Positions 24,479-34,993 of a DNA stretch of 34,993 nucleotides are shown in pieces; positions within the stretch are counted from its first letter, which is position 1, and every line of letters begins with the position of its first letter. Source of the DNA: a virus. Location of the stretch: the IMG/VR virus record IMGVR_UViG_3300030380_001335, positions 1-34,993 of that record; one strand, written 5' to 3'. The notes beneath the pieces are model-generated. The model saw nothing but the letters and a program-made list of their open reading frames with translations, was not told the DNA's origin and did not search any database. A program made the position numbers and the translations under genes.

Positions 24479-24499
24479 AACTTATACCTCCTTGTATTG

Positions 24500-24527
24500 A
24501 GTATATCTTATAGATACCCTGTGTCAA
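24500..24527 (-). promoter_or_regulatory. Strong sigma70-type promoter of the minus-strand operon
   Basis: Reading the minus strand: TTGACA (24527-24522), a 16-bp spacer, TATACT (24505-24500), then AAGGAGG (24493-24487) and the ATG at 24478. It is back-to-back with the plus-strand promoter at 24531-24559, the two -35 boxes being three bases apart. With no phage RNA polymerase gene, this host-type promoter probably drives much of the 29-kb unit. Confidence 0.8.
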
Positions 24528-24530
24528 TAG

Positions 24531-24559
24531 TTGCATTACAATAAGTTTAGTAGTATAGT
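24531..24559 (+). promoter_or_regulatory. Divergent sigma70-type promoter of the putative structured RNA
   Basis: TTGCAT (24531-24536), a 17-bp spacer, TATAGT (24554-24559), predicting a start near A24566. There is no open frame downstream, but a structured segment and a terminator follow. The -10 box matches consensus at five of six positions; the -35 is weaker. Confidence 0.65.
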
Positions 24560-24565
24560 TCTATT

Positions 24566-24804
24566 ACGGGGCCATAACCCAGCCCACCGGCGGTAGAGCA
24601 TGACCAATGGTATAAACGAGTTGAATCAGAGGTATCCTTACAGGTACAGTACTCTGGGTATGTAGGTAGACGCTACATATAAACACGATAAACGAGAATG
24701 CTCACACTCTATGTGTTCTTCCTGTTTTTTTAACGGGTGAGATTCTAGTTGTCTGTAGAAACATGTACACAATAACAGGTTGGCTCTTTTGGTTAACCTT
24801 TTTT
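24566..24804 (+). ncRNA. Putative structured non-coding RNA, about 239 nt
   Basis: A promoter lies just upstream, an intrinsic terminator closes it, and no usable reading frame is present. Helices seen by eye: CAGAG[G]TA with TACTCTG capped by CCT-TAC-AGG (24627-24656); TATGTAG-N7-CTACATA (24659-24679); AGAAT[G]CTCAC with GTGAGATTCT (24695-24705/24737-24746) enclosing CCTGTT-T5-AACGG(G); TTGT[CT]GTA with TACACAA (24749-24772); then the terminator. The 9-mer ATAAACGAG occurs twice (24612-24620, 24688-24696), once before the first helix and once overlapping the start of the third. No known RNA family is recognised. The boundaries are inferred. Confidence 0.6.
24777..24804 (+). terminator. Intrinsic terminator of the putative RNA
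   Basis: AGGTT (24777-24781) pairs with AACCT (24795-24799) across a 13-nt loop, and six T follow (24799-24804). The stem is short but the T-run is clean. It faces the 3' end of the winged-helix gene. Confidence 0.6.
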
Positions 24805-24960
24805 ATAAAAAAAAAGTAAAGCGGTCCTGCTGATCACCGGTTTGGACTATCTGAAAAACCCAGCAAAAATTTGTGTGAGAGAGGTGTGGGTGTGCGCATG
24901 GGGTAGTGGGGGGCGATATGTCACTTTTCTAGGATGTCAATAGCTAAACGGGCGTTTAGC
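24805..24960. other. Gene-free segment with G-rich run and perfect inverted repeat
   Basis: No frame is supported. It contains an A9 tract, a G-rich run on the plus strand (24871-24915), and a perfect inverted repeat GCTAAAC-GGGC-GTTTAGC (24943-24960). That repeat includes the stop codon of the winged-helix gene, so on the minus strand it forms a 7-bp hairpin at that gene's end. A replication origin next to the winged-helix protein is possible, but there are no obvious iterons or DnaA boxes. Confidence 0.4.
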
Positions 24961-25588
24961 CCTTGTAAGATAGTACGCTTAAACCCTTGTCAATATGCAT
25001 TCGCAACGATTCGAGAGGGGTCCCCGATTCAATTAAGATAGTAAGCCGCGCAAGTTCGGACTCACTTGAGACACTCATCAACAAACTAGTTACTTCCTCG
25101 TTATATATTTGCTTTGATTGCTTCGAGTCTTTACTCTTCGCTTGTTTGCTTATGTCTTTGTTTTTATTCATACGCTTCGCTTTAATCATCATGTTTATTT
25201 CAGCGTTATTATATGGCTCAATTGGGGCTTGAGCTATCCGGCTGGCATCTTCATTACTAATATTATCATCGTATATTATGCGCCGTGTTGCGCCCTTAAT
25301 CATCGTATAATGTCCGCTTATCTTTTTAACTATCTTCAATCTTTGAAGCCGGCTCATGTGATAACTAACAGTTTGTGAAGTAACGCCCAGGTCGTTAGCG
25401 ATTCTATTCAACGATACATGCGAGAAACCCGCCTTATTGCAATAGCTGGATAGTACAATTAATACGCGCAAGCTTCCAAAAGTAAGCGGCTTTTCTAATA
25501 TATGAAGCGGGACTACTGCGAATTTTCTTTGGTCCGGGGCCGGTGTTTTTTCTTTAATCTTTTTTTTCTTTGGGAGGTTGTATTCCAT
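24956..25588 (-). CDS. Winged-helix DNA-binding protein (regulator or replication initiator)
   Basis: 210 residues. A basic N-terminus is followed by a winged helix-turn-helix at about residues 28-95: LTFGSLRVLIVLSSYCNKAG, FSHVSLNRIANDLGVTSQTV, SYHMSRLQRLKIVKKI. This is like HTH_36 domains found in phage and plasmid initiators (lambda O-like) and in some repressors. The C-terminal half has a Lys/Ser/Gln linker and a helix pair. The phage has no other replication initiator and no CI-like repressor, so either role is open. A -10 box (TATAAT) ends six bases before the ATG, so the mRNA may be nearly leaderless. Confidence 0.65.
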   Translation of the reverse strand: MEYNLPKKKKIKEKTPAPDQRKFAVVPLHILEKPLTFGSLRVLIVLSSYCNKAGFSHVSLNRIANDLGVTSQTVSYHMSRLQRLKIVKKISGHYTMIKGATRRIIYDDNISNEDASRIAQAPIEPYNNAEINMMIKAKRMNKNKDISKQAKSKDSKQSKQIYNEEVTSLLMSVSSESELARLTILIESGTPLESLRMHIDKGLSVLSYKG

Positions 25589-25708: not shown

Positions 25709-26014
25709 ATGTATCCTAAAAAATTTAATTTTTATCAAGATCCGGGCCATGCGTGGCTGCGGGTTCCATTATCAGAATTGCGCCGTGGCAATTTAATTTC
25801 TAAAATAAGCTCATATTCTTTTATGAATGGAAAATGGGCTTATCTTGAAGAGGATCAGGACGCGCCTCTTTATTTGAATCGACTAGAAGAAGATGGATAC
25901 AAGCCTTTTATTACTTTTGGTTGTATTAATAGAATTATAAGTAATAAACCATCTAAAATTAGAAATTATGCTCGTTTTAATTATATTAAGATTATTTCTA
26001 AGGGGGCTATATAA
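25709..26014 (+). CDS. Early protein of a widespread uncharacterised small family
   Basis: 101 residues from the ATG at 25709, chosen over an in-frame ATG at 25661 because AAGGA of the shared leader stands at the right distance. The pattern QDPGHAWLRVPLSELRRG, KISSYSFMNGKWAYLEED and a central DAPLYLNRLEEDG recalls a small protein common on phages and plasmids (DPGHGWLxVP...YLEEDCDA). It has no known function that I can name. It is the first gene after the early promoter, and it overlaps the next gene by one base (TAATG). Confidence 0.65.
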   Translation: MYPKKFNFYQDPGHAWLRVPLSELRRGNLISKISSYSFMNGKWAYLEEDQDAPLYLNRLEEDGYKPFITFGCINRIISNKPSKIRNYARFNYIKIISKGAI

Positions 26015-26736
26015 TGCAGAATTCTATAATATATCAAGGCCCATCATTGCTAGACGGCTCGCCTATTGTTGTTGTTGCGCTGGTAAAATCTAGCAATAAA
26101 AAAACCGGTGATATGGTCCAAACTTATATCATCCGGGCGGATATGGACCCGCTTAAAGCTTCAAAGTATGGCCTTGATTTTGCCGTATGCGGCGATTGCA
26201 AACACCGGGGCGAAGCGGATCCGGACGGAACCGGGAAGCAAGCTAAAAAACGCTCATGTTATGTAACGTTATTCCATGGCCCCTTACAAGTATATAAAAG
26301 CTTTAAAAAAGGGAACTATAAACCCGCCGGGGATATATCAGGCCTTGCACGTGGCCGCATGGTTCGCCTTGGGACTTACGGCGACCCCGCCGCGGTTCCC
26401 TCGCATATATGGGATGCTTTGCTTAAAGATAGCGCGGGCCATACCGGCTACACTCACCAAAATAATGCACCGGGTGCAGATGTAAGGCCCGACCTTACCA
26501 TGATAAGCGCGGATAGTTTACAAGATGCAAAAATAGCATGGCAAAGCAAGCGCCGCACTTTTAGGATCATAACGGCTGTTAGTGATAAGCAATCGAATGA
26601 AATATTATGTCCCGCATCTGAAGAAGCCGGGCGCAAGGCTCAATGCAATACTTGCAAACTTTGCATGGGATCGCATCAAACTGCGCCCAGCATTGCAATA
26701 GTAGCCCACGGAAACGGCGCCGCTTACATTAATTAG
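26014..26736 (+). CDS. Cys-motif early protein (DUF7227-like)
   Basis: 240 residues. Two Cys groups stand out: CGDC at 59-62 with Cys82 (RSCYVT), and Cys199 with CNTCKLC at 211-217. With MVRLGTYGDPAAVP, HTGYTHQ and SIAIVAHG they match a phage family I recall as DUF7227, of unknown function. The Cys pattern suggests bound zinc or iron-sulfur. Its codons are visibly richer in G and C (GGC, CCG, GCG) than in most of the genome, hinting at recent transfer. It is co-translated with the preceding gene. Confidence 0.65.
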   Translation: MQNSIIYQGPSLLDGSPIVVVALVKSSNKKTGDMVQTYIIRADMDPLKASKYGLDFAVCGDCKHRGEADPDGTGKQAKKRSCYVTLFHGPLQVYKSFKKGNYKPAGDISGLARGRMVRLGTYGDPAAVPSHIWDALLKDSAGHTGYTHQNNAPGADVRPDLTMISADSLQDAKIAWQSKRRTFRIITAVSDKQSNEILCPASEEAGRKAQCNTCKLCMGSHQTAPSIAIVAHGNGAAYIN

Positions 26737-32701: not shown

Positions 32702-34993
32702 CTATCGGGCGTTTGAGTTTTTAAAAGGGTTCTCGGCAAATGCCATGTATATTATTGTATTACCACTACCATTACTTCCAGGGTCTGTTGTAACAGGTCT
32801 AAATCCATTAGAAAATATATCAAAGTCATCAGAAGTATTTTCAGCATTAGATGTGCTAGGCTCTAATGTTGCATTAGTTTGGTTATATGTACTTCGTGCT
32901 GTATCTACAATACCCCATTGCCTAGTATCACTTGCATTTTTAAACATAATAAATCTAGGTCTAAACCCTGTGTATACAAATGTTCCATTAGCAGAGCCAT
33001 TACCTGTGTAGCTACCAAATTTACTGTAGCCTTCTACTGGTGCAAAACAATATAATACTTGATTATTTGTACCACTTAAATTAGTACCATGATTGCCCAA
33101 AGTAACTACAGTAGCACTAGGTGCAGTACCATTATATTTATTAGTTTCTGTTCCTGCCGCAGAAGTTAAATTAAGAGTTAATGTTTTTGAAGTATCTCCT
33201 AGAGCAGTAACATAAACAGGCCAATCATAACCACCTGTACTTAAAGTTTTACCTATAACAATTTCAGGAGCGACACCTAACCCATGTCCTACTGTAGCCC
33301 CTGAAGTAGCATTTCCAGAATATATTACAATACTAAATCCAGCAGTTGGGTTAGGAGATACCGTGGATATTATAGAACCATCAAAATTAGAAGAGCCTTT
33401 AGTTGCATTTGTATTTGCTTGGCCTCCCATGCCAGAATGAACTGAGCAATAGTAATATAAAGTTGGTGCAGAAGCTGCTACTACAATAACTGTTTTAGCT
33501 CCAGCAGTACCTGGTGTTCCTGTTATTGTAACGCCAGTAGTATACTCAGAACCTCCTCCGTGAGTGCCATCAGATGTAGTAGAAAATCTTAATGGATGTC
33601 CTGAGTTAGAACTGTCTGATTGGTCAAAAGTATAAGTCCCTGATTCATGTAAATTTAAAGTAACAGCACTTGTACCATAATTGTCAAATCTATATTTATT
33701 ACCACTATCACTAACTACTTTAACAGTATAGGTTTTAGCTGTTGTATCTTCGGTTTTCCAACTCCATGCAACCATTGGTCTACTACTTTCATTTACTTCT
33801 CTATCGCTAGGTCCTGCTGAATCTGCGCCAAGAGTAAATCCATCAGAAGTAAACGCTGTAACTTGGTCAGTAGATGTTTGTTCTGCGTCTGTTCTGTTAG
33901 ACATTATAAACTTATTATTACCTCTAACTGCATCTACTAAATGATGACTATAGCTACCTCCAGTTCTTGCTTTTAACCATAAAAAATCAGGTTGAAATTC
34001 TAAACCTGTAATGCTTTGTGTACTACCAGTACCTGTATATAATGCTGTATCAAAACGCTCACTACCATCTTTAATAGTAGAGTCAGGTAAGTTAAATGTA
34101 TTTATCTTTTTAAAACCACTAGGTGGTGTGTAGGTAAATGGTTGCTGACCAAAGTTTACTGTCCATGTACCTCCAGCTACATAAACAAACGGAAACATTT
34201 TAGTGCCATCTGTTAAATCATATGAGGGGTTTGTACCACTTGCAGGATCTCCATCTGTTCCCCAATCCGCTGCATACCAAGTATTATCTCTACCAAAGTA
34301 ATATTTAGCTGCATCAAAATCTATAGCTACTTGAAATGTAGAAGTTGTATTATTTAAATTAGAACCATAAGCTGTGTTAGTAGTTTCTACAATTCTATAA
34401 GCATTACTATTGTTTAAATAATAATAGTACTTATTAGCTTCATCAGAGTAAGCTGATTCTACTTTATTAGTATCTGTTCTAAATCCTAAACCTAATACTG
34501 CATTCACAGCCATCTTACATTCAAAATAATACTTGCCTGTTGTAGGCATATTTGTAGGGAACATAGTTGCATGATTTACAGAGTTAGATGCTTTTAAGTT
34601 CCCGTCAGTCATTGTAGTGTTGACTGCCATATTATTAGGATTTAATGTAGCAAAGTTACTTGTATCTTCATCTGTTAGTGTAGGTACATCTGACATCAGA
34701 TCATAAGTAGATTCGCCTGAAGCATTACTGTTTATGTTATTAGGTGTCCAGTTGTTTTTATTACCACTTGCATCAAAGTTAAACTTAGCATTTGTAGTGT
34801 CTGCAATAGCTAGAAAAATATAAGTATCTCCTGAACCATTCAATGCACCATCTGAAGTTTTTAATTGAAATCCATTATCATTAAAATCTATGTCTACTCC
34901 AGATAAAGTTGCCTCAGCATCATCAGTATTCCATAGTAATCTTTTGTTATTAGGATTATTTGGTTGTCTTGCACTATCCCATACATGCCAAGC
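32702..34993 (-). CDS. Receptor-binding-type tail protein, C-terminal 730 residues (continues from base 1)
   Basis: This is the rest of the junction-spanning gene; true coding resumes at 34894, since 34895-34993 repeat 1-99. Whole-protein numbering: first repeat module ends near 551; SPRY-type sandwich at 636-772 (TGKYYFECKM, FQVAIDFDAAKYYFGRDNTW, WTVNFGQQPF); second copy of the repeat module from about 790 to 1245 (FQPDFLWLKARTG, MVAWSWKTED, KFGSYTGNGS, TGFRPRFIMF). A cupredoxin-like domain at about 907-1014 is inserted, with GHPLRFS and CSVHSGM. No frameshift is seen. The gene as a whole is 3750 bp. Confidence 0.85.
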   Translation of the reverse strand, partial: AWHVWDSARQPNNPNNKRLLWNTDDAEATLSGVDIDFNDNGFQLKTSDGALNGSGDTYIFLAIADTTNAKFNFDASGNKNNWTPNNINSNASGESTYDLMSDVPTLTDEDTSNFATLNPNNMAVNTTMTDGNLKASNSVNHATMFPTNMPTTGKYYFECKMAVNAVLGLGFRTDTNKVESAYSDEANKYYYYLNNSNAYRIVETTNTAYGSNLNNTTSTFQVAIDFDAAKYYFGRDNTWYAADWGTDGDPASGTNPSYDLTDGTKMFPFVYVAGGTWTVNFGQQPFTYTPPSGFKKINTFNLPDSTIKDGSERFDTALYTGTGSTQSITGLEFQPDFLWLKARTGGSYSHHLVDAVRGNNKFIMSNRTDAEQTSTDQVTAFTSDGFTLGADSAGPSDREVNESSRPMVAWSWKTEDTTAKTYTVKVVSDSGNKYRFDNYGTSAVTLNLHESGTYTFDQSDSSNSGHPLRFSTTSDGTHGGGSEYTTGVTITGTPGTAGAKTVIVVAASAPTLYYYCSVHSGMGGQANTNATKGSSNFDGSIISTVSPNPTAGFSIVIYSGNATSGATVGHGLGVAPEIVIGKTLSTGGYDWPVYVTALGDTSKTLTLNLTSAAGTETNKYNGTAPSATVVTLGNHGTNLSGTNNQVLYCFAPVEGYSKFGSYTGNGSANGTFVYTGFRPRFIMFKNASDTRQWGIVDTARSTYNQTNATLEPSTSNAENTSDDFDIFSNGFRPVTTDPGSNGSGNTIIYMAFAENPFKNSNAR
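34895..34993. repeat. Right copy of the 99-bp direct terminal repeat
   Basis: Identical to 1-99; remove one copy to obtain the 34,894-bp circular form. Confidence 0.95.

Follow-up and report, generated by a model that had tools for sequence, protein, structure and literature searches.

A large family of structured RNAs absent from Rfam in environmental phages, with a possible link to replication origins

The window analyzed here is the full 34,993 nt of IMG/VR record IMGVR_UViG_3300030380_001335, and positions 24566-24804 of its plus strand encode a member of a large family of structured RNAs that is absent from Rfam. The gene, drawn from its predicted start to its terminator, is preceded on the plus strand by a sigma70-type promoter, TTGCAT-17-TATAGT (24531-24559), with TTGCAT at 24531-24536, a 17-nt spacer, and TATAGT at 24554-24559. 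The +1 position is predicted from sequence, without transcript data, to be A24566, immediately 5' of a conserved CGGGG. At the other end lies a plus-strand intrinsic terminator (24777-24804; scan hit 24777-24799 plus the T run), and no usable reading frame was found in between, the longest plus-strand ORF inside the RNA being 21 codons. Divergent from the RNA promoter, and back to back with it, is the promoter of the minus operon (TTGACA-16-TATACT, 24500-24527, minus strand).

These features bear out most of the original prediction, which had proposed a promoter-to-terminator unit for a highly structured RNA of unknown type. The unit is supported, but transcription of the locus and an RNA end at the terminator remain inferences, as no transcript was measured. 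The sigma70-like promoter claimed at 24531-24559 held, but it matches only 8/12 consensus bases in the window, under the scanner threshold, and hence was not listed by the scan; close relatives have stronger versions in the same place, TTGCAA-17-TATAAT or TTGACA-16-TACAAT. The claimed absence of a usable reading frame also held, as did the terminator at 24777-24804, which is kept in close relatives only and is not a family-wide feature. A strict terminator scan around all loci showed no enrichment, and since it excluded loops >9 nt it was uninformative. The further claim that the RNA stands head-to-head with the strongest promoter of the genome held in part: the minus-operon promoter is the top match within 22.0-27.5 kb, which was the range scanned rather than the whole genome, and the arrangement is divergent. 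A weak minus-strand promoter-like site was also seen at 24769-24742 (9/12), and such sites occur at chance level in this region.

Beyond the terminator, a family-wide element survey identified an origin-like element, AAAAATTTGTG (24865-24875, plus strand), followed by a G-rich tract at about 24883-24914. It overlaps the 3' remnant of a DUF1289-like gene (24842-24879, plus strand, within a wider remnant region of 24842-24943), a small Cys-rich gene that is intact in the cultured phage MEP301 and many other relatives and of which the window has only the last few codons, keeping the TCTGAAAAA..AAAAATTTG block. Next, on the minus strand, is a gene for an O-like replication initiation protein (24956-25588), assigned through its homologues, of which 16/16 aligned matched PHROG replication initiation families (best 1.8e-11); its AlphaFold model was modest (pLDDT 71.7) and was left out of the evidence. 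An inverted repeat, GCTAAACGGGCGTTTAGC, occupies 24943-24960 at the 3' end of this gene, with similar repeats in MEP301, L020, L031 and L044; it could be an initiator binding site or a hairpin. A plus-strand gene farther along (26014-26736) strongly matches PHROG 2554, which is of unknown function (E 3.9e-70).

Distant blastn searches recovered one cultured relative, MEP301, whose match covered 54% of a 481-base query at 82.7% identity. A search with the neighboring protein found 39 IMG/VR loci, many of which keep the intergenic region, and the RNA region is conserved even in some loci where that protein is only ~45% identical. From these relatives a shared core was read, CGGGGCCAU..CCCAGCCC...AUAAAC...GAUAAACGAGA, and pattern scans of IMG/VR returned 91, at least 120, and 33 matches. 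After a loop-complementarity filter the IMG/VR set comprised at least 224 loci with 133 distinct cores. The filter relies on pseudoknot 1, described below, and the evidence for that pseudoknot was therefore drawn from a set not so filtered.

Outside phages, no member of the family was found in the collections searched. A pattern covering part of the family's length range found no real member in a bacterial genome collection of 84,980 species; the hits it gave (L130-L137) were rejected as chance, as they lacked the rest of the core and received no covariance model score. A blastn search of a plasmid collection (word 11, E 0.01), with a query of several family members, gave no match. The only carriers found in the phage collection were MEP301 and MW202825. 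The RNA was absent from the sequence searched of Pelagibacter phage Hodr and MW202753, and from the parts searched of Cronobacter phage Ss1 and Vibrio phage VA-RY-3, all of which share the terminase or exonuclease. In MEP301 (MW452941) an annotated hypothetical gene, gp54 (33584-33730, minus strand), overlaps the RNA in antisense orientation and is likely a spurious gene call; the paper describing that genome does not mention any promoter, intergenic region or terminator (PMC8024684).

Searches against Rfam 15 gave no matches for the whole window at the gathering threshold, and none for 24480-24960 up to E = 5, in agreement with the original prediction, which recognized no known RNA family. 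In 20 relative loci Rfam matched only tRNA and hammerhead models, both away from the RNA, and ARAGORN found no tRNA or tmRNA genes. The literature searched had the core motif only in unrelated papers. None of the resources searched thus contains this RNA class, which could nonetheless be listed in a large published compilation of candidate viral RNA structures. Any novelty concerns the RNA class; its mechanism may yet prove to be of a known kind.

The RNA core measures ~130-185 nt, and the 3' strand beyond it folds back. In an alignment of 32 sequences, standard pairs filled 91.7% of pair cells, compared to 70.4% in shuffles, and when partners were slid by 1-3 columns as a control only 33-44% were paired. 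Changes on both sides of a pair were seen in 135 cells (42 in shuffles), and the covariation score was 0.562 (shuffles 0.180). No consensus pair placed on the window is nonstandard. The original prediction had named in advance what would refute it, a lack of covariation and of helix conservation in relatives, and the RNA passed this test strongly. The folding of a single sequence, also proposed as a check, was dropped as evidence: the folding energy was not unusual (z = -0.18), and the minimum free energy structure misses helices P1 and P2 and both pseudoknots. With energy uninformative and covariation strong, the structure is proven by comparison rather than by folding energy.

All coordinates of the structure are on the plus strand. 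The 5' end forms hairpin P1 (24569-24585; 24569-24572 with 24582-24585), the loop of which holds the 5' strand of pseudoknot 2, and which takes the compensatory forms GGGC/GCCC, GGAC/GTCC, GAGC/GCTC, GGGA/TCCC, GGGG/CCCC, and GGGT/ACCC. It is followed by stem P2 (24586-24611; 24586-24588 with 24609-24611), which encloses hairpin P3 (24592-24605, GGU/ACC); the P3 loop, 24596-24601, supplies the 5' strand of pseudoknot 1. Pairing is 100% in each of P1, P2, and P3, and the numbers of pairs with compensatory changes are 3, 4, and 1, respectively; in P2 both sides have changed in all 4 aligned pairs. P2 also holds many G-U pairs on the plus strand, which would be A-C mismatches on the opposite strand, indicating that the plus strand is the RNA.

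An invariant AUAAAC (24612-24617) follows P2, and leads into the P4 domain (24617-24687), which carries hairpins P5 (24627-24656) and P5b (24659-24679); its window pairs were checked. The closing C-G pair of P4 is invariant in 32/32 sequences, a tandem mismatch is frequent, and the interior is highly variable in length. The domain is followed by the invariant GAUAAACGAGA (24687-24697), 11/11 columns of which do not vary in the 32 sequences. Most members were found with a search pattern that included AUAAAC, and GAUAAACGAGA also belonged to it, but GAUAAACGAGA is equally present in loci found via the neighboring protein. These two segments mark the first and second copies of the repeated 9-mer of the original prediction, a claim that also held: ATAAACGAG has exactly two copies in the window, at 24612 and at 24688, and each falls within the invariant core of the family. 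A further hairpin, P7 (24721-24737), rests on window pairs only, and its covariation was not counted; because it shares bases with pseudoknot 2, it could represent an alternative state.

Two long-range pseudoknots clamp the 5' half of the RNA to its 3' half around the invariant AUAAAC...GAUAAACGAGA core. In pseudoknot 1 the P3 loop (24596-24601, GAGCAU) pairs with the bases right after GAUAAACGAGA (24698-24703, AUGCUC). In the unfiltered set, all 5 bp could form in 18 of 19 distinct loop/partner combinations, and the paired share of cells was 91%, whereas shuffles averaged 51% and never exceeded 69%. Pseudoknot 2 forms between the P1 loop (24577-24580, ACCC) and GGGU at 24735-24738, and five co-varying forms of it were found (ACCC/GGGU, GCCC/GGGC, AGCC/GGCU, CACC/GGUG, and AUCC/GGAU). 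P1 loops with GCCC had a GGGC partner in 9/9 cases and GGGU in 0/9. A downstream-context test caught only 1/8 of the CACC class, since the motif there is followed by different bases; the GGUG partner was nonetheless present in all. One locus, L185, had no pseudoknot 2 partner in the searched span, and the motif is located farther downstream.

A covariance model (R1) comprising P1-P2-P3-P4 and the invariant core, without either pseudoknot, matched 99 loci at about 80-136 bits (lowest 79.9), and scored none of the chance pattern hits tested, separating members from chance. Its match to the window spans 24564-24706 (104.6 bits, E 4.9e-26), and the window (L040) was among the 32 sequences used to build the model; sequences outside model building also scored, such as L053 (135.7 bits) and L158 (95.7 bits). 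The window also carries both of the pseudoknots left out of the model, with 6 bp in pseudoknot 1 and 4 bp in pseudoknot 2.

The RNA is found in at least four gene contexts, indicating that no single downstream gene accounts for the family. In context i, the window type, it adjoins the O-like initiator gene; in context ii it lies upstream of genes for a YqaJ exonuclease and a RecT-like protein; in context iii (L046, L062) it is upstream of a small HNH-like gene and what was read from sequence, with no library match, as a primase-helicase-like protein; and in context iv (L054, L076) it is flanked by terS and terL and lies on the opposite strand. Terminase genes are within ~5 kb of the RNA in several contexts, and a small CxxC-type ORF lies downstream in 52/113 loci by a loose test that includes chance ORFs. 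A promoter site matching at least 9/12 bases was found just upstream of the RNA in 41% of 123 loci, compared to 6.7% of shuffled sequences. The promoter is conserved in context i loci, but many loci of contexts ii-iv have no recognizable promoter. Six loci (L046, L062, L063, L091, L143, and L238) have a terminator-like T-run ~20 nt upstream of the RNA and no clear sigma70 promoter, which suggests that the RNA 5' end may arise differently there.

Sequence signals suggest that the RNA adjoins or overlaps apparent replication origins in two of these contexts. Bacterial origins generally have an AT-rich unwinding stretch beside DnaA boxes (PMC13220808). Exact DnaA boxes are rare around the family loci, with 61 in 1,132 kb around 133 loci, and 40 of the 61 lie 100-600 nt downstream of the P3 reference point. 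In context i they form arrays just past the G/C tract (L104, L085, L183, L239), and in context ii they fall inside the 3' half of the RNA (L050, L063, L117, L143). Because the loci are related, the box counts are not independent events. The AAAAATTTG[A/T]G element is downstream of the RNA and on the same strand in all 48 of its copies in family loci, and in 40 of 42 complete cases AAAAATTTG[AT]G is followed by a run of five or more G or C. A DnaA box follows the window-type element in only 8/42, and no DnaA box within one mismatch was found near the RNA in the window, where the element and tract would thus need the O-like protein or degenerate sites.

Several observations on this element and tract are recorded here for their own sake. 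An origin-like element occupies the matching place in 46 family loci, some of which then have DnaA box arrays, and in L168 and L160 the AAAAATTTGAG element is present in two tandem copies. G and C runs swap between relatives while the flanks keep their orientation. Six contigs (L002, L006, L008, L009, L017, and L024) stop within or beside the G-rich tract at variable positions; an assembly break or cos site at the tract was considered and, on limited evidence, rejected on account of this variability, which looks like sequencing or assembly difficulty rather than a fixed terminus.

The reading we favor is that the RNA has a role in the initiation of phage replication, although in the absence of expression or functional data this is an inference that we consider slightly more apt to fail than to hold. 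The RNA would be transcribed towards or across the phage origin, where the folded molecule might keep the transcript in place as a pre-primer or R-loop former, or might serve as a cofactor or regulator during DNA opening by host DnaA or by the phage O-like initiator; the choice between these options is unresolved. The terminator ahead of the origin element in the window favors a discrete RNA over a simple read-through primer, and a simple rG/dC R-loop, or any mechanism needing a G-rich RNA, is disfavored by the C-rich tract seen on the RNA strand in some cases. A replication role is supported by the clustered DnaA boxes, the AAAAATTTG[AT]G element, the O-like neighbor, and the replication and recombination genes of several contexts; against it, no DnaA box was seen near the RNA in context iv (L054, L076), and a location close to an origin is not proof of acting there. 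The original prediction had argued that the transcript must have a use, in regulating the minus operon, host RNA or protein, or replication, and among these replication is best backed by context, the function itself being inferred. A bolder version, in which we place less than even confidence, makes this new RNA class a working part of the origin. The RNA would be transcribed into the origin and folded by two pseudoknots, would have no sequence relationship with plasmid RNA II, and would cooperate with host DnaA or a phage O-type initiator in opening or priming the DNA.

The main rival, which is possible, is a trans-acting RNA with a host target, such as a defense nuclease, RNA polymerase, or the ribosome, for which it might serve as decoy or inhibitor; it would lie near origins only since early genes sit there. 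This would fit the stand-alone unit in the window, the compact double-pseudoknot fold with its invariant core, the differing gene contexts, and the failure to find the family in plasmids or, over part of its length range, in bacterial genomes. It leaves unexplained why DnaA boxes concentrate, and the origin-like element occurs, beside or inside the RNA, and no host target was identified, none having been sought.

We consider it unlikely that the RNA is a cis-acting leader (a riboswitch, attenuator, or antiterminator) of a downstream gene. In its favor, the RNA runs into the DUF1289-like gene without an obvious terminator in L020, L034, L035, and L056, genes for small Cys-rich proteins lie downstream in other loci, and the bases shared by P7 and pseudoknot 2 are switch-like. 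Against it, the downstream gene varies by context, and the window has lost the DUF1289-like gene yet keeps the RNA, with the next gene on the opposite strand. As a general explanation a DUF1289 leader was rejected, the gene being absent in many loci, the window included.

A packaging RNA that works with the terminase, like phi29 pRNA, is very unlikely: terminase genes are within ~5 kb in several contexts and flank the RNA in L054 and L076, but other contexts are among replication and recombination genes, and no Rfam match at all means none to the phage pRNA family. That there is no RNA, only conserved DNA such as a binding or packaging site that merely resembles structure, gains from the DNA-level elements adjoining the locus and the lack of a measured transcript, but is all but excluded by compensatory changes in P1, P2, P3, and both pseudoknots, the many P2 G-U pairs on one strand, and the promoter conserved in context i.

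Several known systems invite comparison with this RNA. The ColE1-type RNA II is a structured plasmid pre-primer heading to an origin that has a DnaA box as well as a G-rich stretch, and by analogy, in manner of working only, the present RNA would likewise be a structured transcript heading to an origin with these features. It differs in that no related sequence was found in the plasmid collection by blastn (word 11, E 0.01), no antisense RNA I has been shown, the window has a terminator before the tract, and the tract of some relatives is C-rich. Transcription of OOP and of the origin in lambda and the R-loop origins of T4 also place an RNA beside a phage origin, and the lambda origin is paired with an O-type initiator, as in the window. 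The present RNA has not been shown to be antisense or a primer, and to our knowledge no conserved folded RNA family of this kind occurs at lambda or T4 origins. The pRNA of phi29 is another small structured phage RNA that uses loop pairing; the pairings inferred here are within one molecule, the context is mainly replication and recombination, and the Rfam covariance model of phi29 pRNA matched neither the window nor the 20 relative loci. GOLLD, ROOL, and similar ornate RNAs are structured, bacterial or phage-associated, found by comparison, and of unclear function (PMC2864571; PMC12286853), but the RNA described here is much smaller and has no Rfam match.

The family is large and well supported in environmental phages, and includes MEP301, a cultured phage of a marine methylotroph. 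We conclude that the RNA is real and important to the phage; its job is unproven. The MEP301 genome has no DNA or RNA polymerase gene (PMC8024684), which makes it dependent on the host replisome, and if the origin link is true, phage replication initiation would have an RNA component open to direct tests in a laboratory host, with implications for the way in which small phages that encode no polymerase of their own take control of that replisome. Whatever its function, the consensus and model enable annotation of the RNA in many viral contigs. One such contig, L034, has in addition to the new RNA a match to the Type I hammerhead ribozyme at 642-693 on the minus strand (37.7 bits, above the gathering threshold).
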